59,589 nucleotides of DNA from Planctomicrobium piriforme (GTDB lineage Bacteria; Planctomycetota; Planctomycetia; Planctomycetales; Planctomycetaceae). Position 1 is the first letter of the stretch. Every line of letters starts with the position of its first letter. The notes under the pieces were generated by a model. The model made no database searches, was not told the DNA's origin, and saw only the letters and a program-made list of their open reading frames with translations. Both the position numbers and the translations under genes were made by a program. The DNA lies in the NCBI GenBank assembly GCA_945860955.1, contig CAMATH010000041.1, positions 1 to 59,589 of the forward strand, written 5' to 3'. Below, piece after piece: positions 17,283 through 52,857 of this stretch.

Positions 17283-17333
17283 ACGCCCGCCAGGAAGCGC
17301 TATCAAGTTCCCGCTTCCTGACGGCCGTGGCTC
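17283..17333. repeat. REP-like palindrome (GCCAGGAAGCG family)
   Basis: GCCCGCCAGGAAGCG and CGCTTCCTGACGGCCGTGGC pair around a roughly 11-nt loop. Related hairpins sit at 26861-26920 (perfect) and 34284-34331 (degenerate), always between genes. Confidence 0.7.
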
Positions 17334-17390
17334 CGTCAAAATGTTTCAACGCGGACCGTGCGGAGTATATCCAGTAAGCGGGCCGTTGAA

Positions 17391-17584
17391 TTTTTAGACA
17401 GGATGAAAGGGATGAAGAGGATGGCTGACTCGACTGTCGATTGTGGGGATTGGAAGTTTTTCGATTTCAGCCGCTGATCCAGTGAGCAGGAATGGCGAGC
17501 AACTCCATCCTGTTCATCCCTTTCATCCTCTTCATCCTGTCAAATTCTTTCCGTCCGTCGTACGCACTCTCATAGCTGCACAAC
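17391..17584 (+). repeat. dispersed 'GGATGAA' repeat, full copy
   Basis: Starts TTTTTAGACAGGATGAAAGG and ends at the CGCACTCTCA block followed by AGCTGCACAAC. The two GGATGAA-rich arms face each other across a spacer of about 75 nt containing TTTTTCGATT and GAGCAGGAATGG. Both spacer words recur in the copy at 34020-34222. Confidence 0.75.
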
Positions 17585-17709
17585 CACTTTCCGCAGTTCC
17601 GCTTCACGGCCCACTCGCGGCGTTCGCTGGCCGTGGCACCCAACTTAGCCTCCAAGCGGGCCGTTGTATAAAATAGGGTCGGCCCAGAAGCGGGCTGTAA
17701 AAAAAATTC

Positions 17710-33113: not shown

Positions 33114-33632
33114 TCAACTCGGTTTGTACCCGGCTTGGTACAGCATCTGTTCGACTTCGGCTCGTTCTTCGTGGGCGTACTGTGTCACGAAGAGGAACAA
33201 TTCCTGGTCGAAAGCTTCGGGGTTGATGGCAATTTGCAGCATCGCGGTGTAGTGGGCGCTGTGCCGTTCGAGATTCCAGTCTCCATATTGAAGCGAACTG
33301 CTGCGGTTTTCGAGAAACTGGTCCACTTCACGGGGCGGGCGAGTGAAAAACTTGAAGGGGGTGGCCGCGTAGCAGGTGAGCCGGCCCGCTTCGAAGCCGA
33401 TGCAGATGACCCGTTCTTCAAACTCGTAAGCGGCGAATTCGGCCTCCAGGGTCTGAATTTCGAAGCCCGCTTGTTTGCAGAGGTCGTACATCACCCCGGC
33501 GAAATCCGAGAGACGGTGCGCCCGCTCGCGATCGGTCTGTTCGCGGCGGTGCTTTTCGTGGTTGTGGTGGTGGTAGGCATGCGCGGCGGCGTGTAGCGCG
33601 TGGTGAATCAATTTGTGCCAGATGTCGCTCAT
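33114..33632 (-). CDS. unknown His-rich-N-terminus protein
   Basis: 172 aa, no family recognised. A His-rich stretch at the N-terminus (WHKLIHHALHAAAHAYHHH, residues 5-23) could bind metal. The rest looks globular and cytoplasmic, with FAGVMYDLCKQAGFEIQTLE, EERVICIGFEAGRLTCYA and a C-terminal HEERAEVEQMLYQAGY helix. It is upstream of, and on the same strand as, the DUF1232 gene. Base composition and length look like an ordinary gene. Confidence 0.75.
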   Translation of the reverse strand: MSDIWHKLIHHALHAAAHAYHHHNHEKHRREQTDRERAHRLSDFAGVMYDLCKQAGFEIQTLEAEFAAYEFEERVICIGFEAGRLTCYAATPFKFFTRPPREVDQFLENRSSSLQYGDWNLERHSAHYTAMLQIAINPEAFDQELFLFVTQYAHEERAEVEQMLYQAGYKPS

Positions 33633-33861
33633 GGGGCGGCCTTTCTCGTTCGATCATGTCACCAGGAGTGAATGCCTTTTTTTTTATTCAAGGTGCGACT
33701 GGCGGGGGATCAACAACGTCTTTTTGTGGAGTGTCAGGTTCTTCGTAAGGATGGGGGGAGTTTACGTGGGATCGGTTGCGGGGAAGCGGGGAGGAACTGT
33801 GGTAGGGCGGGGTTGCTTACCAATAAAGACGCTGCTGCCGACAGAATTTTTCAGGAATCTC

Positions 33862-34335
33862 ATTTTTTTCAACGACCCGCCTGGAGGCTCAATTGGGTGC
33901 CTCAGCCAGCGAACCAAGCGAGTCGGCCGGGCGAGCGTCTACGGACATTGTGTTTGGGATCCGGGCGATCGTCGCCGCAAAGCGGGCGCTCTACCAATCC
34001 GGACCAAACTGCGGAATTGTGTTGTGCGGCGCTGAGAGTGCGTACGACCGACGGAAAGAATTCGACAGGATGAAGAGGATGAAAGGGATGAACAGGATGG
34101 AGTTGCGCGCCATTCCTGCTCTCGGGGTAGGTGGCGGTAATCGAAAAACCCCATCCCCCACGGTCGACAGACGCCTGGGCAATCCTGTCCATCCCCTTCA
34201 TCCCTTGCATCCTGTCTAAAAAGCAGCGGTCCGTTTGCAGGCTCCGCTCTGCGCGGTCCGGGTTGAAACATTGTGATGGATCAGCGCCCGGCGGAAAGCG
34301 GGAGGTTTGATACCGCTTCCCGATGGCCGCGATTC
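33862..34335 (-). repeat. composite dispersed repeat, inverted copy
   Basis: Inverted, longer relative of 17283-17690. From right to left it holds the degenerate palindrome (34284-34331), the TGTTTCAACCCGGACCG block (from about 34271), the GGATGAA repeat (34020-34222) and the terminal GGAGGCTCAATTGGGTGCC block (33884-33902). It fills most of the 1.1-kb gap between the 172-aa gene and the sigma factor. The other parts of the gap (33633-33861 and 34336-34745) show no gene. Confidence 0.7.
34020..34222 (-). repeat. dispersed 'GGATGAA' repeat, inverted full copy
   Basis: On the minus strand it opens TTTTTAGACAGGATGCAAGG and closes with the CGCACTCTCA block, the same limits as the copies at 4621 and 17391. 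Its spacer carries TTTTTCGATT and GAGCAGGAATGGCG, as in the 17391 copy. Confidence 0.75.
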
Positions 34336-34745
34336 CCCGAAACGGTCTTGTTTCCCTGTGTGCGACGAAAAAGATCGAATCGCCGGATGCCGTCCCCAGC
34401 GTCGCGTCGTGCCACTCCAACGACGGCGGCGGCGCTCGAGTGAAGCGGTCAACTGGCCGATCGGAAACCGGGCGAGACCGCGTTCGGACATCCTCCCCAG
34501 GCAATTCCGGCGAGTTTTTCGGAATTTTTGGGGAAACAACATTCGTTGCCGGTATCTGTTTGTAACTGCTTTCTGAATAATGAGTTGTGGAATGCGATCG
34601 GTTTGGGCTGATCGGAATCCGCCATCGCATTCTGGTAATTGTCAAAAAATTTCCAGATGATTGAAAAAACTCCGGATCGCCGACGTCTTTACCATCGAAC
34701 GACGGTGAAATTCCCGAGTTGCCCCTGTGGGAGAACGTGAGCCCG

Positions 34746-35834
34746 ATGAGTACATCAGATCAGGAGACTCCTGGTTCCAGTGCGATGGAGTCCCTGATGC
34801 GAAAGGCGTTGTCGGGTGATTTGCAGGCGATCATCGATCTCCAGTTGCCTGGTCACTTTGAAAAAGTGCTTGAGTTCGCACTCGAGGAGGAACGTGAGCC
34901 CAAGCCCGGGGTGACTTATTTGCTGGACGGCGTATTCCCTGATTTGAAGAAAGAAGATTCCGAAGTAACTTCCGAGCCAACAGACATCGATGTTGAACCG
35001 GAGCCGCTGGGCGCGGTCGCACAGAAACTTCTGCGCAGGGAACCGCTGTTTCGCCAACTCCTGGAGCAGGCACTCGTTGTGAAGCGAGCAGAAAATCGAC
35101 TGCGTCCACACAATGCGAAATTGAACAAAAGTGAGCGGGCTCAGCTCGAAGCAAAGTGTTCTCAGTATTTGAGTCGGGTTCGGGCGATTACAAATGTTCC
35201 CTCGGTGGCTCTGGAATTCTTGCGGTGGTTTCAACGCGGGGATCCCGATGCCAATGAACTCATCGTACACGTCGCGGGGCCCTATTTGTGGGCATGTACG
35301 GTCAATATCCTCAATCACTCTTCAGAACGGGCGAAAGATAGTTACCAAACCGCCTGGCTCAAGGCCTATAAGTGGCGAGACCGTTTTCGGGGTTCCGGAA
35401 AATTCGGCGGCTGGCTGGCGACTATATTTCGACGTCAGGCGCTGGATCTTGTCGACTCGGTCGAATCCGAGGCTCCCGCTTCGTTCGAGGAACCGGTTGG
35501 CGATCGCGCCAGGTCACCCGAAGAGTCGATCGATATTCAGGATGCGATCGCGTGGGCGACCAGTGATTTTTCGTCCGACCGATTGCGGATCCTCGAATTG
35601 CGGGTCGAGGGCAAGGCATTTGCCGAGATCGCCACAGCGATCGGGGCAACTCCTGCAAAGGCTCGATCTGAATGGATCAAAATCCAGGGACTGCTCCGCA
35701 ACCGGTTGGAATCGCAAGGCCTGGACTTGCCTCCGGAGATTTCCGAAAAGAATCCCGGCGACGATTCGTCTTTCCCCTCGCCGGAAACACAACACACAGA
35801 TGGAGATTCGAATGAAGACAATTCCGATGAGTGA
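34746..35834 (+). CDS. sigma-70-family (ECF-like) factor with long N-terminus
   Basis: 362-aa RNA polymerase sigma factor. The C-terminal half has region 2 (YQTAWLKAYKWRDRFRGSGK then FGGWLATIFRRQALDLV, residues about 203-240) and region 4 (RLRILELRVEGKAFAEIATA, IGATPAKARSEWIKIQGLLR) with the ECF-type helix-turn-helix. The N-terminal 180 residues are acidic and not part of a usual ECF factor; they could sense or bind a partner. The start at 34746 (MSTSDQETPG) is chosen; TTG 34719 and GTG 34737 are alternatives. It overlaps the next gene by about 35 nt, and that gene overlaps the NACHT gene, so the three are probably co-translated. Targets and regulation are unknown. Confidence 0.85.
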   Translation: MSTSDQETPGSSAMESLMRKALSGDLQAIIDLQLPGHFEKVLEFALEEEREPKPGVTYLLDGVFPDLKKEDSEVTSEPTDIDVEPEPLGAVAQKLLRREPLFRQLLEQALVVKRAENRLRPHNAKLNKSERAQLEAKCSQYLSRVRAITNVPSVALEFLRWFQRGDPDANELIVHVAGPYLWACTVNILNHSSERAKDSYQTAWLKAYKWRDRFRGSGKFGGWLATIFRRQALDLVDSVESEAPASFEEPVGDRARSPEESIDIQDAIAWATSDFSSDRLRILELRVEGKAFAEIATAIGATPAKARSEWIKIQGLLRNRLESQGLDLPPEISEKNPGDDSSFPSPETQHTDGDSNEDNSDE

Positions 35835-36561
35835 ACTGCGGGCATTCCTCAAAAAGGTGCCGCCTGACCGTGCCTCCGGTCCTCCGCCAATGTTCCCTCT
35901 CGGTGGCGTTGGCAGCGGCGAGCTTCCCGAAGTCGCGACCGCAGTCGCCGGATTGGCGCCAGCGGACTGCGAGGCGAATCGCCTCTACGCCGAGCAGGCA
36001 GTTGGCGTTCACGGATTGAGAATCGAAGCCTATGAAACCGAGGATCATCGCCTGATGGTCGCGCTCACGTCCAAGAATCCTCAGCTTCAAGGCCATGCCG
36101 TGTGGGTCGCTTTCGAAGGCGATCAACCAGACGGGCTGGTTACTGAAAAATTTCGGTTTGACCCCCAGGCTGCCAATCCACAGATGGCGTGCAAAGATCT
36201 GGGCCCTGTTTCCGAACTCCGCGAAAAGCTTGGTAATCGTCTCCGCTGGACCGTGTATACGCCCGAATTCAAACCAGAGGACCATGCCAGCGAGATTCCT
36301 GACACGAACACCGCCAGACTCGACTCCGTCGACAGCCATTACATGGAACGGTGCCTCCGATCGGTCCGCTCGGCGAGATTCGAATCCCTGGTCGTCCGTT
36401 TCCTGCCAGACCGTCACGATTCCACCCGGTTGACCGATTTGGTCCTGCGGAACCTATGTGCCATTCGAAATGAATCAACTTCCCAGTCTCCGCCAACTCA
36501 CGGATCTCATCGAAGCCGGGTCAAAAAGATCGAGTCTCCGTGTACGCGGTCTGCTGAGTGA
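35800..36561 (+). CDS. unknown protein linking sigma factor and NACHT NTPase
   Basis: 253 aa if started at ATG 35800; ATGs at 35812 and 35827 are alternatives (MKTIPMSELRAFLKK). No family recognised. After a Pro/Gly-rich segment it has a beta-rich core (HGLRIEAYETEDHRLMVALT, GHAVWVAFEGDQPDG) and an Arg-rich C-terminus. It overlaps the sigma gene by about 35 nt and the NACHT gene by about 92 nt, a strong sign of one operon. By position it could be an anti-sigma factor or a signal adaptor; that is inference. The open frame extends upstream to 35194, but that part lies entirely within the sigma gene. Confidence 0.6.
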   Translation: MEIRMKTIPMSELRAFLKKVPPDRASGPPPMFPLGGVGSGELPEVATAVAGLAPADCEANRLYAEQAVGVHGLRIEAYETEDHRLMVALTSKNPQLQGHAVWVAFEGDQPDGLVTEKFRFDPQAANPQMACKDLGPVSELREKLGNRLRWTVYTPEFKPEDHASEIPDTNTARLDSVDSHYMERCLRSVRSARFESLVVRFLPDRHDSTRLTDLVLRNLCAIRNESTSQSPPTHGSHRSRVKKIESPCTRSAE

Positions 36562-39500
36562 TTCCGATCCCATTCAGAGGTGTTTTCACGAGCTCGCCGC
36601 GTCTGACGGTGGCGGACCCGACCGGGAGGTGATCGAGACGTGCTGGAAAGGACTGGCCAGTACCAGCCTGTTCGCGACCTTGAGTGGCACCCTGGCGAAT
36701 GAACTCGAATCCAAAGATTGTCACCGGTTGCAGCGAAATCTCCTCAATCGGTTCGCCGCCTCGCAGGCGGCGCTCGCCGCCGTCCGCGCCGGGCGCGATC
36801 CGAATCCTGATCATCTGACGCAACTTTTCTACTGGCTCGGGCGTGCGAGGGATGGCGAAACCGCCTCCTTGCCAAGCTGCGAATTCACGCGCGATCCACG
36901 CTGGGCTCCCTCACAATTGCTGGCTGAAGCGTCTCGCAGGCTCATCTGCCTCTCCCCTGCGCCAGCGGGCTTCTCCGTCGACGATCTCTGTTACCGGCGT
37001 GATGTCGCGCTGCTCTGGTTGGAGCGGACCAACTTGGGCGACATCAGCCGGTCGGCGGTGGAGATCGCCCACACGGTCTACGTTCCGGTCGCCGCGGTTG
37101 ATACTTCCAGGAATGATGGATTCCTCCTGGATCTCTTTCTCGAACAAATCGCCCCGGATCCGGAATTGCCCGACTGCGCGGTGTTGGTCGAGCATCCCGA
37201 TCTGTGGAATCGGCTGCTGGGGGGAGAAGTGGCCGAGGCGGTGCGTGAGGGTTGGAACGCATGTCATTTCACGACCCTGTGCCGATGGTCACTCACACCC
37301 CGAGACGCGTCACGTACCCGGTTGACGCTCAAAGGGCGGTCTCATTCCGGAGGGGCGCATGCCGGCTTCCGGTTCCTGGCCGCCGGCGAGACCTATGATC
37401 GGGGCGTTCTCATCGCGGCCGAAGTCAAAGTTGTCGAACGAGGCAAAGGCTCGGTGGCGTCGACACCCGATCGCCCGCAAGGCAGGCTCGACAGCCAGAA
37501 CCGACAGTTTCAACTGATTCAGGTCGGGTCGATTCATCAGAAACTCGACGCCGCTTGCGCCCCGAACGCGCGAATCCATACGGCATTTCTCGCTCCGGGC
37601 CCCGAAGACGACAAGAATCCGCGACCGGAATCGCGGTATGGCGAGAAACTGATCGTCAAGACGATTTCCTGCCTGGATGATGCGTTTCCCACCGCCAGTT
37701 TGTCCCCGGTGGTGTCGTCCTACCTGGAATGGGTCATCCACGAACATTCGAAACTGCGCATCTGGGGGGTCGGGACGGAAGGGGGCCGCACCCCCACAGT
37801 CGATCTTGAACAGGTCTATGTCGCTCTGAGTGGTTACCAGACTTCGGAAGGAGAATGGGCCGCCACGGGCCGGTTGATGAAACAGGAGGCCGATCGCCGG
37901 ACGGAACTCGAACTCCGCGAACGGTTCGGCGGCCTGCAATGCGACCTCAAAGACTTAAGCGATGATGACCGGGAACAGATTCAGATTCGCTTGAGCGGCG
38001 ATCTGCTTGCCTTCACCGAACGGGATCGGATCGCGCCGGGGAAATTTCAGTCTCGCTCGGCGGAGGGGCCGGCCGCGGCGGACAAGGAGACTCGCGAGAT
38101 TTCACTCGGAGAGGCGTTCGCGAAATACCGTCGGCTGGTGATCCTGGGCGATCCGGGCAGTGGGAAGACGACGCTGGTGCGGTGGATGGCACGTCAGATG
38201 GCCAGTACGCTGCGGCGACCCGTTCCCGCGGACGCCCGCGGTCCCCGTGTTCTGGTCCCCACCCGGCAGGTCGACCCCAGCCGACCCGACGACGCCAACC
38301 TCTTTGATTTGGGGCCACCCAGATTTCCTGTACTGGTACGAGCGGCCCAGTTCGCCGAGGCGCTGCGCGTCAGCCGAGATTCCCGACAGGAACCCCCGAA
38401 ACTGCTCGACATCCTGACCCACCCGCAGTGGGAACGGAGATTCCCCCACGACCCGAGTTCGGGAACATCGGGAATTCCCGCGTCCAGCACGGCGAAGCGG
38501 ATCGAAGAGGCGATTCTGGGAAACCGCGCGGTGCTGTTGATCGACGGTCTGGACGAAGTGACCACCAGCGCCGACCGCAAAGCGATCGTGGCGGCGATCG
38601 ATGACTTCCTTCAGTTGCAGGTCAACAGCGAGGGGATGCCGGGCGAGACCGGGGGAAATCAGGTGGTGATCACGAGTCGGGTCGCCGGGTACTGGGCGGC
38701 ACCGATTTCGGTGGAACAGGTGCAGATGGTATTCAAGATTCAGCCGATGCGGCGGATTTCGGTGGAGCAGTTTTGCCATAATTGGAGCCGGGTCGCTCCC
38801 AACTGGCATCGCGAGACGGATGACTCAGGTGGTCGATCGGCGACGGCGGAAGGACTGATCGCGGAGATTTATGACCCGAAAAATCCCAGTCGGTCGAACC
38901 TGGCGGGGAACCCGCTCTTGCTGACGGTCATGGCGGAGTCGTTTCGGCGCGATGACAGGCTGCCCCAGCAGCGGTCGGAGTTGTTCCAATTGACGATCGG
39001 CTATTTGATCAACGAATGGCATCGGGACGACCGGATGGATGATCGGTCGCAATTGAGCATCGACGAAACCTGGGTGGTGCTGGGAGCTGTCGCCGCGTTT
39101 ATTCATCAACATCGTGCGGACAATCTTCTGTGGGATCGTGAGGCGCAGAGTGAGATCATAAGGGCGTTGGAAAACACCGATCGACCGAGGAATGAACTCA
39201 AGCGGGTCGCCGACCGTTTTCTGACAACCGCCCGGGAGAATGTCGGACTGTTGACGGAGGTGGGGCGTGGCGTGTGGCGATTCCTGCATCAGAACGTTCA
39301 GGAATACCTGGCGGCCCGTCACGTGATGGCGGAAGGTCCGGGGTCGGCGGCACTACAGATCCTGTCGCGACTCGACAATCCCCGCTGGAGGGAGCCGCTG
39401 TTGATGGGACTGGGGCATGCCAGTCGGGTTTGGCCGACGCGCCAGTTCCGGGAACTGGTGGATCAGATTTTGCTGGCGGACGGGGCGGTGGGAAACGAGT

Positions 39501-42500
39501 TGCCAAGATCGCATTTGCTGGTGCTGGACGCGGCGCTGGAAATGGAAGAGGTTCCGGAGGGACTGTGGGAACGCCTCAGCGAGCGCTTGATCGCGATTTA
39601 CTCGGCGCCGACGGGGATCGGTCGATGTCCCCCGTTGCGTTCACGGATCGAGAGCGCGTTTGAAAAGATCCGGGAGTACTGGCCCCATTCCGGACTCGAT
39701 CGCTTTCTGGTCTCGAAACTCCAGCAGGCGACGACCGCCTGCGGGGTCGCGGAGTTGATTCGTTCCAATGTCCGCTGTTCCGCCGCCGTTCTCTCTGCGC
39801 TCTATGCGGCGCGACGGTTTGATTCGCCGCAGCGGGGCTGGGTGATCGACCGCACATTGCAGTCCATCGCGCAGTCGACTGCCGCTGTCACCGCGAACCC
39901 TCGCGAAACGGGATCAGACTCGAAGACAGAAGCCGATTCTCCTGCGGCAACTCCGGCCCCCCCCGTCCGAGAATTTCCGCCGGCGTTACGATTGAGAAAG
40001 AATCTGCTGTTTCGGCGCGATGTGGACTGGAATGATTTCTTCGCGCGCCATACTGAAGCATCTCGGTTCGTGGTCGCGCTGTTCGGCGGTCTGGGTGATT
40101 TTGACGCCCCCAGCGTCACAACAGAGTATGCGCTGCGCGCCCGATTGCTGCAGTTTGGGGGATCGCTGGTATGGGACGCAAAGTCGGACGATCCGATTTA
40201 TGAAATGGCGCTCTGGATGGATAAGGGGCTCAAGCAGAAACTCATTCAGGCGCAGACAAAACCGTCGTTTTGTCCGGAGTTCATTTATCGCGATACGTTT
40301 GACCCCGCCCTGTCGGATCTGGTCTGGAACTACCTGTGCGATCTGGTCGACCAACCACACCACGCGGATGCCACTCGCCGTGAATTGGCACAATACCTCG
40401 CTGAGTCCTGGCGGGACGAAGCGCGACCGAACGAACAGCGGATCGAGGCGGCACTGGGGCTGACCCTGTTGTTGGGTGAGAATTCCCCAGACGTGGTGGC
40501 AGCGCGGGATTGGTTCATTTCCCGGGAGGATGGCCGAAATGAGGCGCTGCGCATGCGAAATGCCCTCCGCGATCCGGTCGTGCGTTCAACAGACTATTGC
40601 ATCGCTGGAACCAAAGACATCCTCGAGAAACTGTCGGACCAGCGATTGATCGATATCGTGTCCGCGCTGCTGGATCTGCATCTGGCGATGGGAGGGATTC
40701 CAGTCAAAGTGCTCGACCTGGCTGTCGCGACACACCCCACGGCGTCCCGTTACATCCTCGCGGAACAGTGGGCGTACTGGGTCGCCGGCTGTTCTGATGA
40801 CAACATCTACAATTTCGCGGTCGTGCTCGACACCCTGGGAAAACAACTGACAAACGAAATCACCCAGTGTTTCGCCTATCTGCATTTATCGATGAATCGG
40901 CGCTGGGATGGTCACCTGGGTTGGCCGGTTGAGTCCGTTCCTCCCAAATCTGAAAACTGGTTCGACAATTTTGTCATCGCGCTCGAGGCGGCGACCGCGA
41001 TTCCTCCCCGGATTCATCTCGCCTGGATCTGGACCATCGCCGAGGCGTTGCGACCCCTTCTCAAACCGGAATTGACCGCCGAGCTCGACGCGATTGTCCT
41101 GTCTCAACCTCTGACGATCATTGTGGAGTATGACGACACGTTCACGTCCACGCTGGAAACCTGGCAGGCCGATTACCTGTTCAAGAAGACGGAACGGGTG
41201 ATCTATCCTTATCTTCGAGCCCGAACATGGTTGCGCATGATTCAGGTGATGCCGGAACGCAGGCAGGAACTGATCGAACGATCGTGCGCGGACGCGGCGC
41301 TCGCCGCCCTTGGAACCGAGGATAAACAGGTCTCGCGCCTGCAGTCGGCCCTGATTTATGAACGGTTGGCGACCGACCTGGTTCCCGAAGGACGCGAGTC
41401 GTTTCGAATCGCCGTCGAAATGGCGTTCCAGCTCGATTCCAGCAATCGGGTGCGTTCGTTGACGCGCTTGTCCCGTTTGTGCGATCCCGCGGAACGCCCC
41501 GTGTTGCTGAAGGACGCCATCGACGTTCTCCGTTCGATCGGGAATCCCGAGGAACGCGCGGAACTTCTCGCGGAACTTCAGGCGGAATGGCCGCTTTACC
41601 CGGAAACCAGCCGGGAGCTGAGGCGCCTCGCCGGCGAATTGCCCTCTGCCGAACTGCGGGCGCGAGCGCAGAGGAAACTGGCGCCCGTCATGGGTGAGGT
41701 CGCCGGCCAAACCGACGACCTGGAAAATCAGGTCTGCTGGTCGACTGTGCTGCTGGGAGCCGAGCTGGAGGATTTGTGCCGTGAATTCTCACCTCCCGCG
41801 GGATTGGATGCGATCTGGGAACGGGTCGCGCATGGCGACGCGGGGGCGTTCTCGCGACTGTGTGAGCTGGGCAGAATTGATGGCTTGGCGCTGACCTACC
41901 GCGCCGCGTCCGTTCTTTCGCAACTCCGCGGCCAGTCGCGTCACGCGGAACTGGCAACGATTCTCTCACTCGTGCGGGATCCCGACCCGCGAGCCAGCCG
42001 ACTCATCGAACCCTGGTTGCAGGATCCCAATCCCGAGATCCAGCTCCCCACCGCGCTGCTGCTGGCGGAGGGGCAGGTCTGGCGGCCCGAAGTCGTTGCG
42101 CGGCTTGGCGATTGTCTCAGGGCGGGTAATGACCGGTTGCGTTTTCGCGCCGCCAAGGCCTGTTACTTTAAATGGAATGCCCGACTGGCCCGCGCTCTCG
42201 GCTTGGAGACTCTGTTGGCGGTGGGCAGAAGCCAATTGAGACTGACGATTCAAAACGTCGGTGCCGCCCTCGCCTGGAGCTGGTTCTGGCAAAACGTCAA
42301 ACACAATGACGTGGCGATTTTCGACGAACTCGTCCGCATCGCGGATTGCGACGAACACGAGCGACAGAGGGCGGCACACAGCGTTCTCAGTCATATGAAT
42401 TCCACCTCCAGCGCGGTTTCGCAGCGGTTGATTGAAAAACTCCCGGACGCGTCGGATGAGACGCAAAAGTCACTTCTGATCTCGCTGCGCAGGTTGCGCT

Positions 42501-43774
42501 GTCGGTATGACGAATCGGCTGTTCTGAACATTCTTCGAACCCGAGCCGGGGCGACGCAGCGGGAAGCGGCGCTGGTGTTCGTTGAGTGCGGCACGTCGCC
42601 AGCCACCATTTCTGAGTTGCTGCCGTTGGTGTGCGATGAATCGTTTTCGGTCGCGGTACGGTCGATTGTGCTGACCTGCCTGGGGGGAATCGCGGCGGAC
42701 TATCTGGTCCGGTTCGAAACGCAATTGGCCGTATTCAACTCTTCCGACAAGTCGGAGGAGATGAAGCAGGACTACCTGCTCAAGCTGCTCCCCCAAAACG
42801 GGATGAACGATCTGACCTCGGAAGTGGTCGACGAGGTGGTCGAGACGATTCACATGGCGATGGAACGGGCACTTCAATCCACAGATTCACGAATGAACGA
42901 TGCCGGCGCGCAGGCGCTGGCGGCAGTCTACCTGGCGCTCGAAGCACGCGAAGTTCCATTACGATCGCGCGGGCGATTTCCCGTCTCTCGCGACGCTTAC
43001 CTGGCTCGGGTGGGTGATCCCTCCCGGGCACTTTTTGGCTTGATTGACTCGGAACGATACACTCTCTGGTGGAGTCAGAAATACAAAAAAATGATCGAGG
43101 AGGCCGAGAGTTTCGTCAATGAACACGACTCCCTGCTGATTCCTCCGCTTGTGGAAACGCTGCACCAGGAATTGCAAGCTCCGCTCAACCGGGGGGGGGA
43201 TCTCCGACTCAGTGGGCTGGTGGATATTTCGGCCCATGTCGCGGTCTGCTTTCCCGCTCAATTCAACGAGCAGGCGGCGAAATATCCGTATTTTGGCGAC
43301 AACCTCGCGGTTATCGCCGGTCGGCTGAATGGTTTTCCCGGCCGAATGGGCGCGATCACGATGCTGGGTGTTCTGCGACAACCGGCGGGGCGCGCCGTGG
43401 CCGAGGCGATTCGGTCGGGAATTCGGGACGTCTGGCCGGTCCAGTCGGCGACGCTGGAGGCCGTGGGACGAATCAGTCAGTTCTCGGATGAAATGGTGGA
43501 AGTGTTGCTGGAGGAACTGGACAACCCCAGCCGGCTCACCGCGTTCACCGCCGCGCGGCTGTTGACATCCATCGGAACCTCCGAAAGGGCCTCGGTTGAG
43601 GTTCGACAACGGATCCTATCCCGAATGACCACCGTCGCCTCACAGGAAACCCACGACAACGAAGTCTTCATGCTGGATGAAAACACCAGTTCCGACCGCT
43701 GGTGCATCCACCACTTGGGTCGGCTCGACGATTTGTTGCACAAAGCGATGATGGAAATTGGTGGTTTGATTTGA
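36470..43774 (+). CDS. giant NACHT STAND NTPase with HEAT-like C-terminus
   Basis: 2434-aa protein (GTG 36458 is an alternative start). Order: helical N-terminal region; a possible Lon/S16-like domain at about residues 285-360 (GRSHSGGAH, GVLIAAEV, VGSIHQKLDAA); a NACHT ATPase with P-loop LVILGDPGSGKTTLVRWMA (about 557-575), Walker B AVLLIDGLDEV (about 687) and sensor-like VVITSRVAGYW; then LAGNPLLLTVMAE and FLHQNVQEYLAARHV, typical of the helical and winged-helix parts; then about 1400 residues of HEAT/ARM-like repeats. NACHT proteins of this kind act as nucleotide-driven sensors in signalling, and several defend against phage. No signal peptide or TM segment is seen. It overlaps the upstream unknown gene, so sigma factor, unknown protein and NTPase form one unit. 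The trigger is unknown. Confidence 0.85.
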   Translation: MNQLPSLRQLTDLIEAGSKRSSLRVRGLLSDSDPIQRCFHELAASDGGGPDREVIETCWKGLASTSLFATLSGTLANELESKDCHRLQRNLLNRFAASQAALAAVRAGRDPNPDHLTQLFYWLGRARDGETASLPSCEFTRDPRWAPSQLLAEASRRLICLSPAPAGFSVDDLCYRRDVALLWLERTNLGDISRSAVEIAHTVYVPVAAVDTSRNDGFLLDLFLEQIAPDPELPDCAVLVEHPDLWNRLLGGEVAEAVREGWNACHFTTLCRWSLTPRDASRTRLTLKGRSHSGGAHAGFRFLAAGETYDRGVLIAAEVKVVERGKGSVASTPDRPQGRLDSQNRQFQLIQVGSIHQKLDAACAPNARIHTAFLAPGPEDDKNPRPESRYGEKLIVKTISCLDDAFPTASLSPVVSSYLEWVIHEHSKLRIWGVGTEGGRTPTVDLEQVYVALSGYQTSEGEWAATGRLMKQEADRRTELELRERFGGLQCDLKDLSDDDREQIQIRLSGDLLAFTERDRIAPGKFQSRSAEGPAAADKETREISLGEAFAKYRRLVILGDPGSGKTTLVRWMARQMASTLRRPVPADARGPRVLVPTRQVDPSRPDDANLFDLGPPRFPVLVRAAQFAEALRVSRDSRQEPPKLLDILTHPQWERRFPHDPSSGTSGIPASSTAKRIEEAILGNRAVLLIDGLDEVTTSADRKAIVAAIDDFLQLQVNSEGMPGETGGNQVVITSRVAGYWAAPISVEQVQMVFKIQPMRRISVEQFCHNWSRVAPNWHRETDDSGGRSATAEGLIAEIYDPKNPSRSNLAGNPLLLTVMAESFRRDDRLPQQRSELFQLTIGYLINEWHRDDRMDDRSQLSIDETWVVLGAVAAFIHQHRADNLLWDREAQSEIIRALENTDRPRNELKRVADRFLTTARENVGLLTEVGRGVWRFLHQNVQEYLAARHVMAEGPGSAALQILSRLDNPRWREPLLMGLGHASRVWPTRQFRELVDQILLADGAVGNELPRSHLLVLDAALEMEEVPEGLWERLSERLIAIYSAPTGIGRCPPLRSRIESAFEKIREYWPHSGLDRFLVSKLQQATTACGVAELIRSNVRCSAAVLSALYAARRFDSPQRGWVIDRTLQSIAQSTAAVTANPRETGSDSKTEADSPAATPAPPVREFPPALRLRKNLLFRRDVDWNDFFARHTEASRFVVALFGGLGDFDAPSVTTEYALRARLLQFGGSLVWDAKSDDPIYEMALWMDKGLKQKLIQAQTKPSFCPEFIYRDTFDPALSDLVWNYLCDLVDQPHHADATRRELAQYLAESWRDEARPNEQRIEAALGLTLLLGENSPDVVAARDWFISREDGRNEALRMRNALRDPVVRSTDYCIAGTKDILEKLSDQRLIDIVSALLDLHLAMGGIPVKVLDLAVATHPTASRYILAEQWAYWVAGCSDDNIYNFAVVLDTLGKQLTNEITQCFAYLHLSMNRRWDGHLGWPVESVPPKSENWFDNFVIALEAATAIPPRIHLAWIWTIAEALRPLLKPELTAELDAIVLSQPLTIIVEYDDTFTSTLETWQADYLFKKTERVIYPYLRARTWLRMIQVMPERRQELIERSCADAALAALGTEDKQVSRLQSALIYERLATDLVPEGRESFRIAVEMAFQLDSSNRVRSLTRLSRLCDPAERPVLLKDAIDVLRSIGNPEERAELLAELQAEWPLYPETSRELRRLAGELPSAELRARAQRKLAPVMGEVAGQTDDLENQVCWSTVLLGAELEDLCREFSPPAGLDAIWERVAHGDAGAFSRLCELGRIDGLALTYRAASVLSQLRGQSRHAELATILSLVRDPDPRASRLIEPWLQDPNPEIQLPTALLLAEGQVWRPEVVARLGDCLRAGNDRLRFRAAKACYFKWNARLARALGLETLLAVGRSQLRLTIQNVGAALAWSWFWQNVKHNDVAIFDELVRIADCDEHERQRAAHSVLSHMNSTSSAVSQRLIEKLPDASDETQKSLLISLRRLRCRYDESAVLNILRTRAGATQREAALVFVECGTSPATISELLPLVCDESFSVAVRSIVLTCLGGIAADYLVRFETQLAVFNSSDKSEEMKQDYLLKLLPQNGMNDLTSEVVDEVVETIHMAMERALQSTDSRMNDAGAQALAAVYLALEAREVPLRSRGRFPVSRDAYLARVGDPSRALFGLIDSERYTLWWSQKYKKMIEEAESFVNEHDSLLIPPLVETLHQELQAPLNRGGDLRLSGLVDISAHVAVCFPAQFNEQAAKYPYFGDNLAVIAGRLNGFPGRMGAITMLGVLRQPAGRAVAEAIRSGIRDVWPVQSATLEAVGRISQFSDEMVEVLLEELDNPSRLTAFTAARLLTSIGTSERASVEVRQRILSRMTTVASQETHDNEVFMLDENTSSDRWCIHHLGRLDDLLHKAMMEIGGLI

Positions 43775-43797: not shown

Positions 43798-44064
43798 CGG
43801 GGTGCCGAAGGATTGCCTGGCTCGTCGACCTGCGGTGGCATCCCATGATCCTCCGCACGGCATCAAATCAGGCGATTGGCGTCCGTCTTTTCTGTTGTAC
43901 ATCCGACACGCCGGGTGTTGGCCTTGAAGGGATTGATAACCGCAGCGCACATAACAGGAGAGCAGCGATGGACATTTTCGGCAATGAAGAGAACCGCGAC
44001 ATCCACGGGAACTCGATGGATCGGAACATCCACGGGAACCCGTCGAACCGGGTACGATCGTCGC

Positions 44065-44575
44065 ATGTACATCCGCCAATACATGCGAAAGCTCAATGGA
44101 ACCCGCCAAGCCTACTGGGCACTGGTGGAGTCAACGCGTACCGCGCGTGGTCCTCGGCAGCGCATCGTTGCCTGGCTGGGACGCCTCGACGAACAGGGCC
44201 GACTCGGGATTGAGCAGGCGGCCCAGATGGATCGCGGTAAAAATCCATCGAGGGACCGACAGCGATCGTTGTTCGGTGAGGAGTTCCCCATCCCTGAGCC
44301 GCGGTGGGTGGAGGTCAATGCGGCCGAGGTCCGGGCACAGAACCCGCGCCAGTTTGGCGGTCCCTGGTTGGCGCTCGAACTGGTTCGACGGCTGGGACTG
44401 GATGAGTTCCTCGAACGTGTCATGCCGCGCGGCAAGGAACGGATTCCGTGGTCGCTGACCAGTCTGATTCTGGTGATCGCGCGCCTGCTCGAACCCTCCA
44501 GCGAACTCTTCACAGCGGAACAGTGGTATCCCAAGACGGCGCCACCCGAATTGTTGGGTGTCCCCGCAGTGCTGA
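44065..44575 (+). pseudogene. truncated IS1634-type transposase
   Basis: The frame beginning MYIRQYMRKLNGTRQAYWAL and continuing RQRIVAWLGRLDEQGRLGIE, LALELVRRLGLDEFLERVM, IARLLEPSSELFTAEQWYPK and LLGVPA matches the N-terminal part of IS1634-family DDE transposases. It stops matching at about 44575, where LTQRSQ and unrelated sequence follow, so the DDE core is gone. The upstream flank has two copies of ACATCCACGGGAAC 27 nt apart (43999 and 44026). The breakpoint is 110 nt before the CHAT gene, so the element or its deletion may have reshaped that gene's promoter. Confidence 0.65.
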
Positions 44576-44683
44576 CACAACGAAGCCAATTCGGGGTCAA
44601 CCCAGGTTGGGCGTACTGCCGCGACTCTCTCCGTTTCACTAAAATCTCCCCATCGTTTCTCCTCTCCCCATTGTGGCAGCGCC

Positions 44684-47600
44684 ATGGCCGATTACCTTGA
44701 CGTCTTTATCCTCTGCTCCGACCCGGTCAATCTGCGGCCGACGTTAAACCTCGGGCAGGAACTGGCGGCGTTCGAGCGGATTGTGCGAGATTCCGAATGG
44801 CCAGTGCGGTTGCGGAAAATCGTCCCCCCCACGCTGGAACAGTTGGAACGGGAATTCTCGCTCGCCGGGCAGCGCGGCGAGCGGCCGGCCGTGTTCCATT
44901 TCCTGGGGCACGGCGACGACGACGGCCTCTATTTCGAAGACGAGCACGGTCGAGCCGAGCTGGTCAAGGGAAGCCAGTTGCGCCAGGCGCTGGCCAATTC
45001 GCCGGTCAAAGTCGCTTTGCTCAACGCCTGCTGGTCGGCCACCTCTCGGGGCGTCTCGCTGTGCGAATTCCTGACCCGCGAACAAGTCGCTCAGTGTGCC
45101 ATCGGCCATCAGCGGCCGGTCGCCGATTCCAGTGCAATCGAGTTCGCCCACCAATTCTACACGCTGGCGACCACAGGGAAATCGGTGCGGGAAGCGCAGC
45201 AGCGGGCCCGCAATTCGCTGGCCGAAAAGAGGCTGATGGGGGCCTCCGAAGTCGAACTGGTGGGGGATGGGGAATTCCTGCTGACCGCCGACCCGGTGCG
45301 GAACGCGGCCCGACCGCCCCAGTTCGAAGGGGGCCAGCCGAAACTGGGAAGCGTCGACGACGTGGGGATCTTCTTTGGCCGGGGCGACGAGCTGATCGAA
45401 TTGAGCGAGGCGTTCGCCGACTCGAAATTCGCGGCGTTCGGGCTGTGGGGAATCGGCGGGATCGGCAAGACGGCGCTGGCGAAGACCGCCGCTGCCAGGA
45501 ATGTGTGGCGATTTCAGGGGGTGGCGTTCGTCGATGTGCGCGACGCGGCGCAGAAGACGACCGCCGAGCTGCTGCGGCTGGCGCTCAACCGGCTGTTTCC
45601 CGGCGCGCCCGACAACGACCCGGCGTTTGAACTGGCGAAACGGCTGAAAGAAGCCCCCAGCCTGCTCGTACTCGACAATCTCGAAGATCTGCCGGCGGAG
45701 GAACATGCGGCGCTCGGGCGGTTCATCGAAAAAATCCCGCGGAACGGCTCGCACCTGCTGCTGACGGCGCGGGTTCCGCTGGCTGCGATCGAGCGACTGC
45801 CGGGTGTCCGTACAAGACGGCTGACGCAGGGGCTGGACGACTGGAACGGGGCGCATTATGTGCAGCATGTCGCCGAGGTGAAGGAGTGCCTGGCACTGAA
45901 GGACGAACTGCGGCTGCGCGAAGGGAACCGGCTGGAGGGGAGGTGCGTGCTGGTGAACCAACGGCTGCACGGGCACCCGAAAATGCTGGAACTGTCGGTG
46001 GGCCGGGCTCTGCAGGGGCAGGCCGCGCTCGACGAGGCCCTGGTCGCACTTCCCGAAGAGATGGAACAGCAATTCGCCGCGTTGCTGGCAACGTACCTGG
46101 CGCACCTGGGGCAAGAGGGCCGCCAGGTGTTGTCGCTGTTGCAGTTCTTTCCGACGGGGCGGGTGACACCGGAAGAGCTGTCGGCGGCGGCAGCAGCGTC
46201 GCTGGAAGCGACGGCGGAAAATCGGACCGATCCGTCCGATTTGACTGATCCGTCCGATGAATCTCCCGCACCCGTCAGCACGCGAGATCCCGACGCCGAC
46301 GTCGATTCCCCCGAACCCGATCTGACCTGGCTGCACCGCGGCCGGCAGCAACTGGTGGGGGCCGGGTTGCTCGAATACGACCAGGCGAGCGACCTGTTCG
46401 AGTTTCACCAGTCGATCCTCGACGAGTCCCGACGACGGAATCTCGAGGGTCCAGCTCGGCGCATGATCTTCGTGAGGCTGCTCGGCCACTACGCCAACTA
46501 CTTTCAGCAGTACCACAACGATTACGACCGGCTCGACCGTTGTTTCGGTAACGCGATCACCCTGATGGAGGGGTTGTGGCAGATGCGATCGGAGGCGGGG
46601 CCGGTCGACGGAATTCTGGCGGGAATGACGGACTCGATGGGCAACTACCTGCTGCAGCGCGGCCGGTGGCAACTCAAGGAACGCTGGCACGAACGGGCGG
46701 TCGAACTGCGCGAGACGTCGTCGCATGCGAAGAACGATGCGGCACTCGCGCTGCAGAAGTACCAGCAGGCGCAGGTGATGGCCGCGCGCGGCGACAACTC
46801 GGGAGCCCGGAGCGCCCTGATCGAAGCGCAGGAATTTTGTGAACGGTCCGGAGACCAGCAGGGGCTGGCCGCTTCGTTGCACCAGTTGGCGAATCTCGAA
46901 TTTCAAGCCGGCTCGCACGCCGAAGCGCAACAACTTTGGGAACGCTCGATCAAGATCGATACCGAGATCGGCGATATCGCGGGGGCGTCAACCACCCGCA
47001 GCATGCTCGCTCAAGTGGAAGCGATGGCGGGCAACTTCCAACGGGCGATCACCCTCGCCAGCCAGTCGGTCCAGGACCTCGAACGCCTGGGGTACGCGCA
47101 GGTCGACCAGGCGCGCAGCATTTTGGCGTCGATCCAGCAGTTGGCGAGTGGCGGTGCCGTTCCCGCCGCGGGGAATGCGGGACTCTTGCAACGGTTCCAA
47201 ACAGAATTGGCGCGCTGGTCGGCGTTGAGCGGCAGCGAGCGGCAACAACAACTGGTCCAGCTTGCCGCAACGTCCGACCGCGTCGCCGCGGCGCTTACCT
47301 GGCTGGCACACAGCGTCGTCTGCTTTCAACAGCGCGAGCTTCCGGAATGCCAGGCGGCTTTGGCCCAAGCTGAAGCGATCGCCGCGGAAGTGAACGACGC
47401 CGAATTGACTTCGCTGATCGCCACGGCCCGGGAGCAGCTCGCCGCAGCCGCCCCGTCGGCGAGTTCCGCCCCCGACGAGTTGTCCGCCGCGATGCGGCAC
47501 ATCAAAGCGGGCGATTTTGCCGCCGCCGACGGACTGCTTCGCCAGGCGCTGGCGACCGCACGCAACGCGGGTGAGCCAGTCGGCGTCGCCACCTGTTTGT

Positions 47601-47752
47601 TCCTTCTGGGGCAAGTTGAGTACTTGCAGGGGAAAGCCGGCGACGCGGTCGCCGCGCTGCGCGAAGCGCTGGAACTGGCGACTCAGGCGAACGAAGTCGA
47701 TCTCGTCAAGGAGATTCAAAAGGTGCTGACGGTGGCAGTGCATGGTAAGTAG
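44684..47752 (+). CDS. CHAT protease - STAND NTPase - TPR protein
   Basis: 1022 aa, cytoplasmic. The N-terminal CHAT (caspase-like) domain has FHFLGHGDDDGLYFED with catalytic His76 and VALLNACWSATS with catalytic Cys116, followed by FAHQFYTLATTGKSVREAQ. Next is a STAND ATPase: P-loop FGLWGIGGIGKTALAKTAA (about 251-269), Walker B SLLVLDNLEDL (about 326) and LLLTARVPLAAIERLPGV. The C-terminal 400 residues are TPR-like helical repeats. CHAT proteases with repeat domains act in programmed responses, the TPR-CHAT of type III-E CRISPR being one example. The domain order here resembles caspase-type immune sensors. A C1 peptidase gene follows about 700 nt downstream on the same strand. The start has no clear Shine-Dalgarno. 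Confidence 0.88.
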   Translation: MADYLDVFILCSDPVNLRPTLNLGQELAAFERIVRDSEWPVRLRKIVPPTLEQLEREFSLAGQRGERPAVFHFLGHGDDDGLYFEDEHGRAELVKGSQLRQALANSPVKVALLNACWSATSRGVSLCEFLTREQVAQCAIGHQRPVADSSAIEFAHQFYTLATTGKSVREAQQRARNSLAEKRLMGASEVELVGDGEFLLTADPVRNAARPPQFEGGQPKLGSVDDVGIFFGRGDELIELSEAFADSKFAAFGLWGIGGIGKTALAKTAAARNVWRFQGVAFVDVRDAAQKTTAELLRLALNRLFPGAPDNDPAFELAKRLKEAPSLLVLDNLEDLPAEEHAALGRFIEKIPRNGSHLLLTARVPLAAIERLPGVRTRRLTQGLDDWNGAHYVQHVAEVKECLALKDELRLREGNRLEGRCVLVNQRLHGHPKMLELSVGRALQGQAALDEALVALPEEMEQQFAALLATYLAHLGQEGRQVLSLLQFFPTGRVTPEELSAAAAASLEATAENRTDPSDLTDPSDESPAPVSTRDPDADVDSPEPDLTWLHRGRQQLVGAGLLEYDQASDLFEFHQSILDESRRRNLEGPARRMIFVRLLGHYANYFQQYHNDYDRLDRCFGNAITLMEGLWQMRSEAGPVDGILAGMTDSMGNYLLQRGRWQLKERWHERAVELRETSSHAKNDAALALQKYQQAQVMAARGDNSGARSALIEAQEFCERSGDQQGLAASLHQLANLEFQAGSHAEAQQLWERSIKIDTEIGDIAGASTTRSMLAQVEAMAGNFQRAITLASQSVQDLERLGYAQVDQARSILASIQQLASGGAVPAAGNAGLLQRFQTELARWSALSGSERQQQLVQLAATSDRVAAALTWLAHSVVCFQQRELPECQAALAQAEAIAAEVNDAELTSLIATAREQLAAAAPSASSAPDELSAAMRHIKAGDFAAADGLLRQALATARNAGEPVGVATCLFLLGQVEYLQGKAGDAVAALREALELATQANEVDLVKEIQKVLTVAVHGK

Positions 47753-50901: not shown

Positions 50902-52857
50902 TCAGTCGGTTGGCGTGCTACACTCTGCTACCTGGGCGGAGGATAGAGCGCTGGTGGGAACCAACTCGAGCGCCGTCCCAGGGGCCGTCACCGAGATCTT
51001 TGGCGGTGGTGCTCCTCGCGCCGCCGTCCCGCCTGATTTTGACTCTGCCCCACCGGCGTTCTGCGCCGAGCGTGGAGCGGTCGCCTTTCGTTTACGTTCC
51101 GTCGTCTGCTTCTCACGCGGGGTCGCGTCCCGTTTCGTCCTGGCGCTGCGCTGGGATCGCCCGGCGGTGGTCTTCGCGGCGCGAGTCGTCGCGCTGGATC
51201 CGTGTTGTTGAGCTTCTGGGGTGACGCTCGCGGGTGCAGCGTTCGGACAGCAGGTGCCGCCCATCACGTTGTGCCACCATGTCGGCAGCTCCGGCTCCAC
51301 CACTGAGTCTGGCAACAGGTTGGCGACTGTGGTGTCGGCTTCCAGCTCCAGCATCTGGCGCGTGTCCAACGGCACCGTTCCCAATCGGTCGATTCCCACG
51401 GCGGGTGTCGGAACCGCTGCTGGCACACTCGCCGCCGGCTGGATGGGCGTCGCCGCGGGAGCCAGCGTCGCGTTCACTGCCACGTCCCTCTTTCCAACCC
51501 GTTTTGCCGACTCTCGGGGATGGTCCTCTCGCGATAAATCCCGGGGGTTTGGGGGCAGAGCCCCCAACGCTCCACCCGCCGCCGACTCTCGTTTTGGCAA
51601 TCGGCCGACGCCCGGCTTGAATCGTTCCATTGAGAACGGCTGTCCCCTCTCGACCACCGCATACAACGCCAATGGCAGCCGACGCATGATCGCCACCACT
51701 GCCGGTTTGCTGCGCCCCCCATCCTTCCTCTTCTTCGCCTCAAACCAGCCTTTCAGATGCCGCTGCTGAACCAATCGCAGGGCGGCATAGAACAACCAGC
51801 GACGCGCCTCCGATGAACCGCGCTTCGTGATCCGCAGTTGTCCCTGATGCTTCCCACTACTCCGTTCCTTCAGGTTCAGCCCCAGCGACTTGCGGTACGC
51901 CGGACCAGAGTCGAAGTCTCCAGGGTGTCCCACCGTCGCAAACAGCACCGCCGCCGTGTTCACTCCCACCACCTCTGCCATCCGCTGCAAGACCGGTTGG
52001 CTCCGCACCATCTTTCCCAGTCGCCGTCCCGTTTGCAGCAACTCCCCATGCGCCGCAAACGCCGCCTGGGCCGTCTGCTTCATCAGACGCTCCGTCGAGG
52101 CGTCCATGCGCACTCCCACCGTCGACTGCGCACTTCCGATCAACGCCTGCACCTTCTTTACCGTGAGGTGGTGTCCACCCCACTTTTTCAGACGCGCCGC
52201 CGCTTCCGGATCCGCCGCCAGTTTCGCGGATCCGCCGTACTCCATCAGGCACATCTGCATTGTCGGCGTCTTCGGCTTCAACAAGGCGCTCGCCTCCGGC
52301 CAGTGACGCGCCAGCAACGACTCCAGTCGACCCAGCCACTGCTGCAACGTCAACCGCTGTGCCGTCAGCCATGATGTGTCGCATCGCAACTGCTCCACCC
52401 ACTCCGCATTGTTCGGCGCTGCCCACTCCCGCGACTTTCCATGCGCGGCCAGTTCCGCCAGAATCGCGGCGTCCTTGCCGTCGTGCTGGCTCGGAACTCC
52501 GTCGAACACCTCGGAGTAGTCCCGCGCCACCTTCCCTCTCACTCGCGCCACTCTGACACCGGCATCGGCCAGAGCTTGTCGCAACGCGTCCCCATTCGTG
52601 CCGGTCGACTCCATCACCACGGTCGCCTCCCGACTCCGCGCCAGCACCCGCACCCGGTCGACGAACTCCCGCAGTTCGCTCGGCTGCTTCACACACCAGG
52701 GCCGGCTGTACTTGTTGTTGCTGTCTCGAACCACCGCGTACAACTCCTCTTTCCCGACGTCCACTCCGATCCACACCTGGCCTGCCGGCAGCTCCGACAA
52801 TACCGCCGACACGTCCACATCCTTGACTCCGACCGAACGATACATTCTCTTGTTCAT
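50902..52857 (-). CDS. IS110-family transposase with long disordered tail
   Basis: 651-aa DEDD transposase of the IS110 family. The RuvC-like domain carries WIGVDVGKEELYAV (D33), VVMESTGTNGDAL (E83) and SQHDGKDAAILAELAAHG (D126, D129). The C-terminal Tnp domain has GVNTAAVLFATVGHPGDF and FRKS-type ITKRGSSEARRWLFYAALR with the candidate nucleophile Ser. Family members are usually 320-450 aa. Here about 225 extra residues (from about 427) form an Ala/Pro/Thr-rich then Lys/Arg-rich low-complexity tail ending ALSSAQVAECSTPTD. The catalytic residues look intact, so the element may be active. The overlapping frame at 51857-52942 is a shadow. Confidence 0.9.
   Translation of the reverse strand: MNKRMYRSVGVKDVDVSAVLSELPAGQVWIGVDVGKEELYAVVRDSNNKYSRPWCVKQPSELREFVDRVRVLARSREATVVMESTGTNGDALRQALADAGVRVARVRGKVARDYSEVFDGVPSQHDGKDAAILAELAAHGKSREWAAPNNAEWVEQLRCDTSWLTAQRLTLQQWLGRLESLLARHWPEASALLKPKTPTMQMCLMEYGGSAKLAADPEAAARLKKWGGHHLTVKKVQALIGSAQSTVGVRMDASTERLMKQTAQAAFAAHGELLQTGRRLGKMVRSQPVLQRMAEVVGVNTAAVLFATVGHPGDFDSGPAYRKSLGLNLKERSSGKHQGQLRITKRGSSEARRWLFYAALRLVQQRHLKGWFEAKKRKDGGRSKPAVVAIMRRLPLALYAVVERGQPFSMERFKPGVGRLPKRESAAGGALGALPPNPRDLSREDHPRESAKRVGKRDVAVNATLAPAATPIQPAASVPAAVPTPAVGIDRLGTVPLDTRQMLELEADTTVANLLPDSVVEPELPTWWHNVMGGTCCPNAAPASVTPEAQQHGSSATTRAAKTTAGRSQRSARTKRDATPREKQTTERKRKATAPRSAQNAGGAESKSGGTAARGAPPPKISVTAPGTALELVPTSALSSAQVAECSTPTD

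Follow-up and report, generated by a model that had tools for sequence, protein, structure and literature searches.

Overlapping genes for an ECF-type sigma factor and a giant NACHT protein in Planctomicrobium piriforme: a possible conflict sensor with a transcriptional arm

Relays in which a defence protease acts on a partner of a sigma factor have been studied in two systems. In type III-E Craspase the sigma factor CASP-sigma is blocked by Csx30 unless the protease Csx29 cuts this blocker (PMC10028731), and in the CalpL/CalpT/CalpS system CalpL cleaves CalpT and so frees CalpS (PMC12751052, PMC11229360). Genes for extracytoplasmic function (ECF) sigma factors have also been predicted to give a transcription output where they stand beside EACC2-caspase conflict genes (PMC8195603). 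In this work we describe a locus of Planctomicrobium piriforme in which the genes for an ECF-type sigma factor, for a middle protein and for a giant protein with a NACHT domain overlap one another. The locus lies in contig C41 (CAMATH010000041.1; assembly GCA_945860955.1), the whole of which was analysed and is called the window (59,589 nt; the genome comprises 8.4 Mb in 282 contigs).

Each of the described systems resembles this trio in part. As in Craspase, the genes for a sensor acting in defence, for a middle protein and for a sigma factor stand together; the Craspase relay, which runs from a protease to the sigma factor, uses a Cas7-11/CRISPR RNA (crRNA) sensor and the CHAT-type protease Csx29, whereas in the window the sensor would be a NACHT protein and a protease is at most conjectural. 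The order sensor-protease, anti-sigma factor, sigma factor of CalpL/CalpT/CalpS matches the logic proposed here, but CalpL is a SAVED plus Lon sensor of cyclic tetra-adenylate, and the window protein has no SAVED match and no supported likeness to Lon. The EACC2-caspase neighbourhoods share with the window a predicted transcription arm in a conflict system, but they carry an EACC2-caspase together with a DUF1822 protein, and the trio matches neither caspase nor DUF1822 in Pfam. No NACHT/sigma trio was recognised in the open-access literature searched. The statement of a preliminary description of this DNA, that no characterised system has exactly this trio, is fair; it leaves aside the predicted ECF sigma factors beside caspase genes and the two relays already studied.

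By analogy with Craspase and CalpL/CalpT/CalpS we propose that the trio is a NACHT (STAND) conflict sensor to which a sigma arm has been added. In this reading the sigma factor is bound by the middle protein and is set free when an activated NACHT complex disrupts its holder. We put the probability of this reading at roughly 40%.

Layout of the overlapping trio

The three genes (Table 1) follow one another on the same strand, the sigma and middle genes overlapping by 35 nt (23 nt if the second middle ATG is used) and the middle and NACHT genes by 92 nt (104 nt if the GTG start is used). The reading frames were compared by a codon log-odds scan trained on the other genes of the window, in which the three forward frames were set against each other. 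The sigma frame was the best forward frame over 34740-35819, with 0.12 to 0.25 per codon, and the middle frame over 35820-36419, with 0.15 to 0.22, after which the NACHT frame took the lead (0.32 at 36540, 0.20 at 36660 and only 0.01 at 36780). The final 45 or so codons of the middle open reading frame (ORF), about two thirds of which lie inside the overlap, have no coding signal of their own. This succession of forward frames supports three real genes, although the scan by itself is no proof because an antisense frame scores about as high as the forward frame in places (0.31 versus 0.24 at 34860 and 0.22 versus 0.16 at 36060). The overlaps of about 35 and 92 nt given in the preliminary description are confirmed. 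From the overlaps we infer that the trio is translated as a unit; no strong ribosome-binding sites were seen in the bases upstream of its genes. The stretch of about 1.1 kb that precedes the sigma gene (33632-34746) is apparently gene-poor.

Table 1. Features of the trio and coupling-protein-like genes of relatives (positions refer to the window unless a locus is named)
Feature	Position	Strand	Remarks
ECF-type sigma factor gene	34746..35834	+	362 aa, ATG start; alternative in-frame TTG at 34719 possible
Middle gene	35800..36561	+	ATG 35800 gives 253 aa, ATG 35812 gives 249 aa
Beta-sandwich domain of middle protein	36001..36261	+	residues 64-150 of the 249-aa form, six strands and one helix in the AlphaFold2 model
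Giant NACHT gene	36470..43774	+	ATG 36470 gives 2434 aa; alternative start GTG 36458
N-terminal region	36470..37708	+	NACHT protein residues 1-413, orphan; homology to relatives begins at 414
Linker and NACHT module	37709..39409	+	residues 414-980, alignments A1 and A2
Alpha-solenoid (HEAT-like)	39410..43771	+	residues 981-2434, alignment A3, kept family-wide to the last residues
Coupling-protein-like (TraG/VirD4) segment in solenoid	40793..40858	+	NACHT protein residues 1442-1463, SDDNIYNFAVVLDTLGKQ
TraG/VirD4-like gene beside own C36 copy	L036 4909-6192	-	
TraG/VirD4-like gene, Actinacidiphila	L045 16183-17391	-	
TraG/VirD4-like gene, Catenulispora	L046 16301-17668	-	

The giant NACHT protein and its relatives

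The NACHT domain of the giant protein was recognised by Pfam at 29.1 bits against a cut-off of 26.7 (E 1e-6), and both its Walker A (GDPGSGKTT, residue 560) and its Walker B motif (LLIDGLDE, residue 689) are intact. The sequence associated with this domain is shared with the antiphage NACHT protein EruA (NCBIfam NF058535, a model of 1318 aa), which matched at 65.7 bits and E 2.5e-18 with the family cut-off standing at 1000 bits; the name EruA was not met in the literature searched. HEAT_2 was found in the C-terminal part at E 0.0018, a weak match under its cut-off, and the long alpha-solenoid is the probable sensor of the NACHT switch, in agreement with the preliminary description. Pfam scans gave no SAVED match, whether for the whole protein at E up to 0.1 or, at E up to 10, for two parts scanned separately (residues 1-527, residues 878-2434).

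Relatives with the same NACHT module and solenoid were found in a few distant genomes. The Anabaena cylindrica plasmid protein WP_015217806.1 is 28% identical to the window protein over residues 414-1921 of the latter and 25% identical to its final 333 residues. When genome_contigs (84,980 species) was scanned with a profile, 117 stretches gave a match, and relatives are encoded in five of these, from Trichodesmium, Scytonema, Ktedonospora, Actinacidiphila and Catenulispora; the relatives are 24-30% identical in alignments A1 and A2, the likeness of the Scytonema protein being taken from tblastn. Among 391 other planctomycete genomes, with up to two candidates scored in each, there was no full-length relative of the solenoid, and short partial matches occurred in 26. 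The family looks rare and patchy in the sequences sampled, with members in Cyanobacteria, Ktedonobacteria and Actinobacteria besides the present genome; it is spread over at least four phyla, and this pattern suggests horizontal transfer. A second copy is present in the same genome at the edge of contig C36 (L036 1-4873), its 5' end cut by the contig edge and an in-frame stop lying near that edge. The genes of Trichodesmium (L042 9278-15938) and Scytonema (L044 6667-13193) are each split into two ORFs, and are either broken or the product of sequencing errors.

In front of the shared part the relatives carry domains of different kinds. In the Ktedonospora protein (L043 8792-15739) a TIR domain (5e-17) and DUF4062 (6e-6), the latter described as a TIR-like antiphage NADase (PMC13174449), stand in tandem before the NACHT module, and a trypsin-like domain (3e-12) precedes the shared part in Catenulispora (all by Pfam). 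The Anabaena relative has a caspase at this place by annotation; the N-termini of Actinacidiphila (trypsin-like) and of Trichodesmium and Scytonema (caspase-like) were judged by evident sequence likeness only. Because caspase, TIR or trypsin-like domains occupy this position in the relatives, residues 1-413 of the window protein sit in an effector slot and probably form an effector domain of their own. Known NLR-like proteins of bacteria are regarded chiefly as killers. The preliminary description had set transcription in place of cell killing here; that contrast is not supported and does not follow, because the effector slot makes an effector domain likely.

Pfam gave no family for the N-terminal region up to E 10, and no relative was found in 296 other genomes of the family and class, searched with residues 1-527 and with up to four candidates scored in each. 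In a phylum sample of 392 genomes, searched at E up to 1, 42 other genomes gave short matches (best E 8e-4); nine such loci from eight genomes were re-compared and judged to be noise, the best covering 60 residues at 35% identity (L069). Nor was a relative found in plasmids, genome_contigs or viral_contigs, searches of the latter two being sensitive to close relatives only. A Lon-like protease at residues 275-405 was considered on account of GRSHSGGAHAG and VGSIHQKLDAA, whose likeness to the Ser-Lys sites of Lon was noted by eye. A hidden Markov model (HMM) of eight Lon domains gave 3.5 bits, a score reached by none of 2000 shuffles but covering the Lys half only, and a broader Lon HMM gave -5.0 bits, reached by 541 of 2000 shuffles. 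The probability from hhalign was at most 1.7% with four profiles (best shuffles 1.5-2.0%; 60 shuffles each, three profiles), and the paired-motif score was equalled by 12 of 300 shuffles and by 54 of 384 decoy segments.

The sigma factor, the middle protein and the proposed relay

Region 2 of the sigma factor lies at residues 190-236 (Pfam Sigma70_r2, E 7e-9, 35.8 bits against a cut-off of 24), and TIGR02937, an ECF-wide model by which regions 2 and 4 were tested as a single unit, spans residues 184-319 at 38.3 bits, under its cut-off of 42.9. The sigma fold runs to about residue 320 and is followed by an acidic C-terminal tail, while residues 1-155 form an orphan N-terminal extension; the first 165 residues by themselves matched no Pfam family up to E 10. 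The earlier view of the sigma factor as a plausible output is upheld. Matches to it occurred in 93 of 149 family and class genomes (own genome counted). The matches listed are to the core common to sigma factors and show 22-37% identity; apart from the gene itself, none of them extends over the N-terminal extension. Matches to the sigma factor were also present in plasmids. Twenty of the matching loci (17 from relatives and three from the same genome), read by eye on the sigma strand, look like ordinary ECF surroundings, and neither a middle gene nor a NACHT gene was recognised in them; at some loci, such as L076 and L085, the ORF list missed the sigma ORF itself. Orthologous sigma factors that routinely stand without the NTPase would, according to the preliminary description, have refuted a coupling of the two. 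The loci found here are not strictly of that kind, because no ortholog of the window sigma factor was found among the matches listed from the family and class genomes; the likeness stops at the sigma core.

The middle protein has few recognisable features. A Pfam scan of its 249-aa form at E up to 10 gave no match, not even to Trypco2, and no PDB sequence was matched up to E 10; the latter search did not compare it directly with Csx30. A single-sequence AlphaFold2 model of the same form predicts one beta-sandwich with pLDDT (predicted local distance difference test) of about 80, against 51.6 overall, and most of the protein outside the sandwich is of low confidence and probably disordered. The sandwich resembles only generic Ig-like sandwiches (best VIA Z 7.6, which is below 8), Foldseek gave nothing at E 0.001 or better, and a missing clear fold match in VIA-align counts against no family. 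No relative of the middle protein was found in 148 other genomes or in viral contigs, a search of plasmids gave a single match at E 0.2, and a second match in its own genome is weak and interrupted by stops. The beta-sandwich alone gave five weak matches in 249 other genomes, and the four that were inspected (ORFs, loci of 2-3 kb) do not lie beside a sigma gene. The same gene order in other planctomycetes, to which the preliminary description had looked for corroboration, was thus not found within the limits of these searches, which gave no credible relative of the middle protein, of the N-terminal region or of the full-length solenoid.

In the proposed relay the solenoid would bind a ligand linked to an invader, possibly one in contact with coupling proteins of conjugation, and ATP-driven oligomerisation would then activate the N-terminal region. 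Up to that point the middle protein would hold the sigma factor in an inactive state; cleavage or displacement of the middle protein by the activated NACHT complex would free the sigma factor, which would switch on further defence genes alongside the N-terminal effector's own action. The middle protein cannot be recognised as an anti-sigma factor, and we infer its role as holder from the position of its gene; a single folded domain flanked by long stretches of low confidence would suit a holder that can be cleaved. Release by proteolysis is a further guess, and one that we would rather bet against. Everything in this signalling beyond the gene layout is proposed by analogy; it is plausible. 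If the relay is real, it would show that bacteria can connect the NLR design to transcription, and relays of protease and anti-sigma factor of the kind known from CRISPR would extend to a CRISPR-free sensor.

Several observations weigh against the relay. A tblastn search with the sigma factor of the window found no sigma gene at the loci of the seven relatives (140,198 nt; best E 4.2) and detected five of five ECF control loci at 1e-4 or better; six of the relatives' loci show the upstream side, on which a sigma gene would be expected, because L036 is cut at its 5' end. The trio of sigma factor, middle and NACHT genes is known from a single locus. Pfam detected no anti-sigma domain in the middle protein. 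The N-terminal region is an orphan, with no relative in the genomes sampled, its predicted structure was unusable (pLDDT 34), and a Lon-like protease in it is not claimed, since the tests did not beat their controls. No sigma-70 type promoter pattern was found in 34200-36600; no wider search for a shared target promoter of the sigma factor was made.

Because no sigma gene was found at the relatives' loci, the sigma/middle pair appears, as far as sampled, to be an addition peculiar to the window locus. ECF factors often regulate their own operon, and in the strongest rival explanation the pair senses stress separately and turns on the operon, so that it controls expression of the NACHT gene from upstream while the NACHT protein acts only through its own N-terminal effector. 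The sigma gene is indeed first in the operon, the NACHT protein has its own effector-slot region, and no sigma gene was found near the NACHT genes of the relatives. No test made here separates this explanation from the relay, as the close overlaps are silent on which gene acts on which; we consider it somewhat unlikely, if worth keeping in view. The single locus and the lack of a sigma gene near the relatives would fit a chance meeting of the pair with an unrelated NACHT gene, the overlaps resulting from compact packing, and so would the patchiness of the family across phyla and the presence in the window of an IS110 transposase gene and of a transposase-like fragment recognised by eye. Same-strand overlaps of 35 and 92 nt that follow a gene-poor stretch of about 1.1 kb nevertheless look like an operon, and we regard a chance meeting as improbable.

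A different role for the middle protein may be read from the relatives' neighbourhoods. Small genes lie just upstream of the giant gene in Trichodesmium (L042), Scytonema (L044) and Catenulispora (L046), and in Anabaena (L035) a 154-aa gene lies 192 nt upstream of it; the Catenulispora gene encodes Trypco2 (Pfam, 1e-25), a domain described from conflict systems (PMC10907252), and those of Trichodesmium, Scytonema and Anabaena gave no family over its cut-off. That the middle protein is likewise a partner of the N-terminal effector, as Trypco or EACC genes would be, with the sigma factor a mere passenger, finds a parallel in these genes but is a poor bet; the middle protein has no Pfam match to Trypco2 or to any other family. 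The sigma protein likewise has no match to EACC1, EACC2 or Trypco in Pfam (the presence of the EACC models in the library was not verified).

Coupling-protein likeness and neighbouring elements

In three relatives (the C36 copy, Actinacidiphila and Catenulispora) a TraG/VirD4-like gene lies tail to tail with the NACHT gene, 11-35 nt from it (Table 1). The encoded proteins are mutually 44-74% identical, and the two that were tested matched PF02534 at 9e-48 and 5e-33. The Gly-Lys of Walker A is kept in none of the three copies, the Lys being replaced by Arg in two, whereas Catenulispora retains the Lys but has lost the preceding Gly, and the Walker B glutamate is missing in two. By comparison, Gly-Lys and DE were kept in all 18 planctomycete homologues checked (of 20 loci, L154 was dropped as the query and L173 because the copy there is broken). 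The copies beside NACHT genes are thus probably inactive, to judge from these residues, and possibly act as inactive decoys of conjugative coupling proteins.

A short segment resembling a conserved stretch in TraG occurs at one homologous place in the solenoids of the window, Ktedonospora, Scytonema and Anabaena NACHT proteins. It was first spotted by eye and tested with profiles afterwards. A profile of the three NACHT-adjacent copies gave 16.6 bits for the window, 11.5 for Ktedonospora, 7.8 for Scytonema and 3.1 for Anabaena, the best of 1000 shuffles of the window protein reaching 6.5 and the best of 446 other ORFs 7.8; a profile of the 18 intact homologues gave 7.0, 1.2, 5.5 and 3.8, respectively (controls 3.0 and 3.3). 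The window segment therefore exceeds the controls with both profiles and the other three with one profile only, Scytonema equalling the best decoy with the first, Ktedonospora falling under the controls with the second and Anabaena with the first. Where the NACHT gene has a TraG-like gene beside it (three relatives), the protein shows no match to the segment at that place in the solenoid, and tblastn with the NACHT-adjacent TraG-like proteins found no such gene at the four loci whose NACHT proteins carry the segment; Trichodesmium was left out of the segment comparison, its gene being split at that place. This split of four against three may reflect a single evolutionary event. At the Anabaena locus an annotated type IV secretion DNA-binding-domain gene (L035 2706-3791) lies about 3.5 kb upstream of the NACHT gene and has no tblastn match to the NACHT-adjacent proteins.

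We hypothesise from this pattern that the segment acts as a mimic or decoy towards a factor in contact with coupling proteins, and that conjugation would therefore be what is sensed. In its fullest form this hypothesis makes the giant NACHT protein a detector of conjugation through a built-in coupling-protein mimic, which would free the ECF sigma factor from its dedicated holder and so start a local effector and a transcription programme at once, and in relatives a dead TraG/VirD4 copy would serve as the decoy, supplying the mimic in trans; taken as a whole we think it unlikely to be right. If the coupling-protein likeness itself is upheld, it would give a concrete, testable guess for the ligand of giant NACHT proteins, and bacteria would have a counterpart of the integrated decoys that plant NLRs carry. 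No NACHT protein with VirD4 decoys was recognised in the open-access literature searched.

Several other elements surround the trio. A dispersed element of some 200-300 bp (33990-34300) with a long hairpin (arms 34061-34098 and 34182-34219) precedes the sigma gene at a distance of about 450 bp; a second copy is present in the window at 17312-17598 (minus strand), and at least 39 further copies with 78-90% identity occur in the same genome (40 of 164 candidates scored). An Rfam scan of the window gave zero matches. Just downstream of the NACHT gene a protein of 1022 aa with CHAT, STAND-like and TPR parts is encoded at 44684-47752. In the search for adaptor domains shared between this protein and parts of the trio none of the ten pairs scored above shuffles. 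The ORF between the two genes (43876-44700) looks by eye like a fragment of a transposase, and the IS110-type transposase gene at 50902-52857 (minus strand) has both of its Pfam domains. A planctomycete is also indicated by gene families of the window such as PSD1, PSCyt1/2 and DUF1501.

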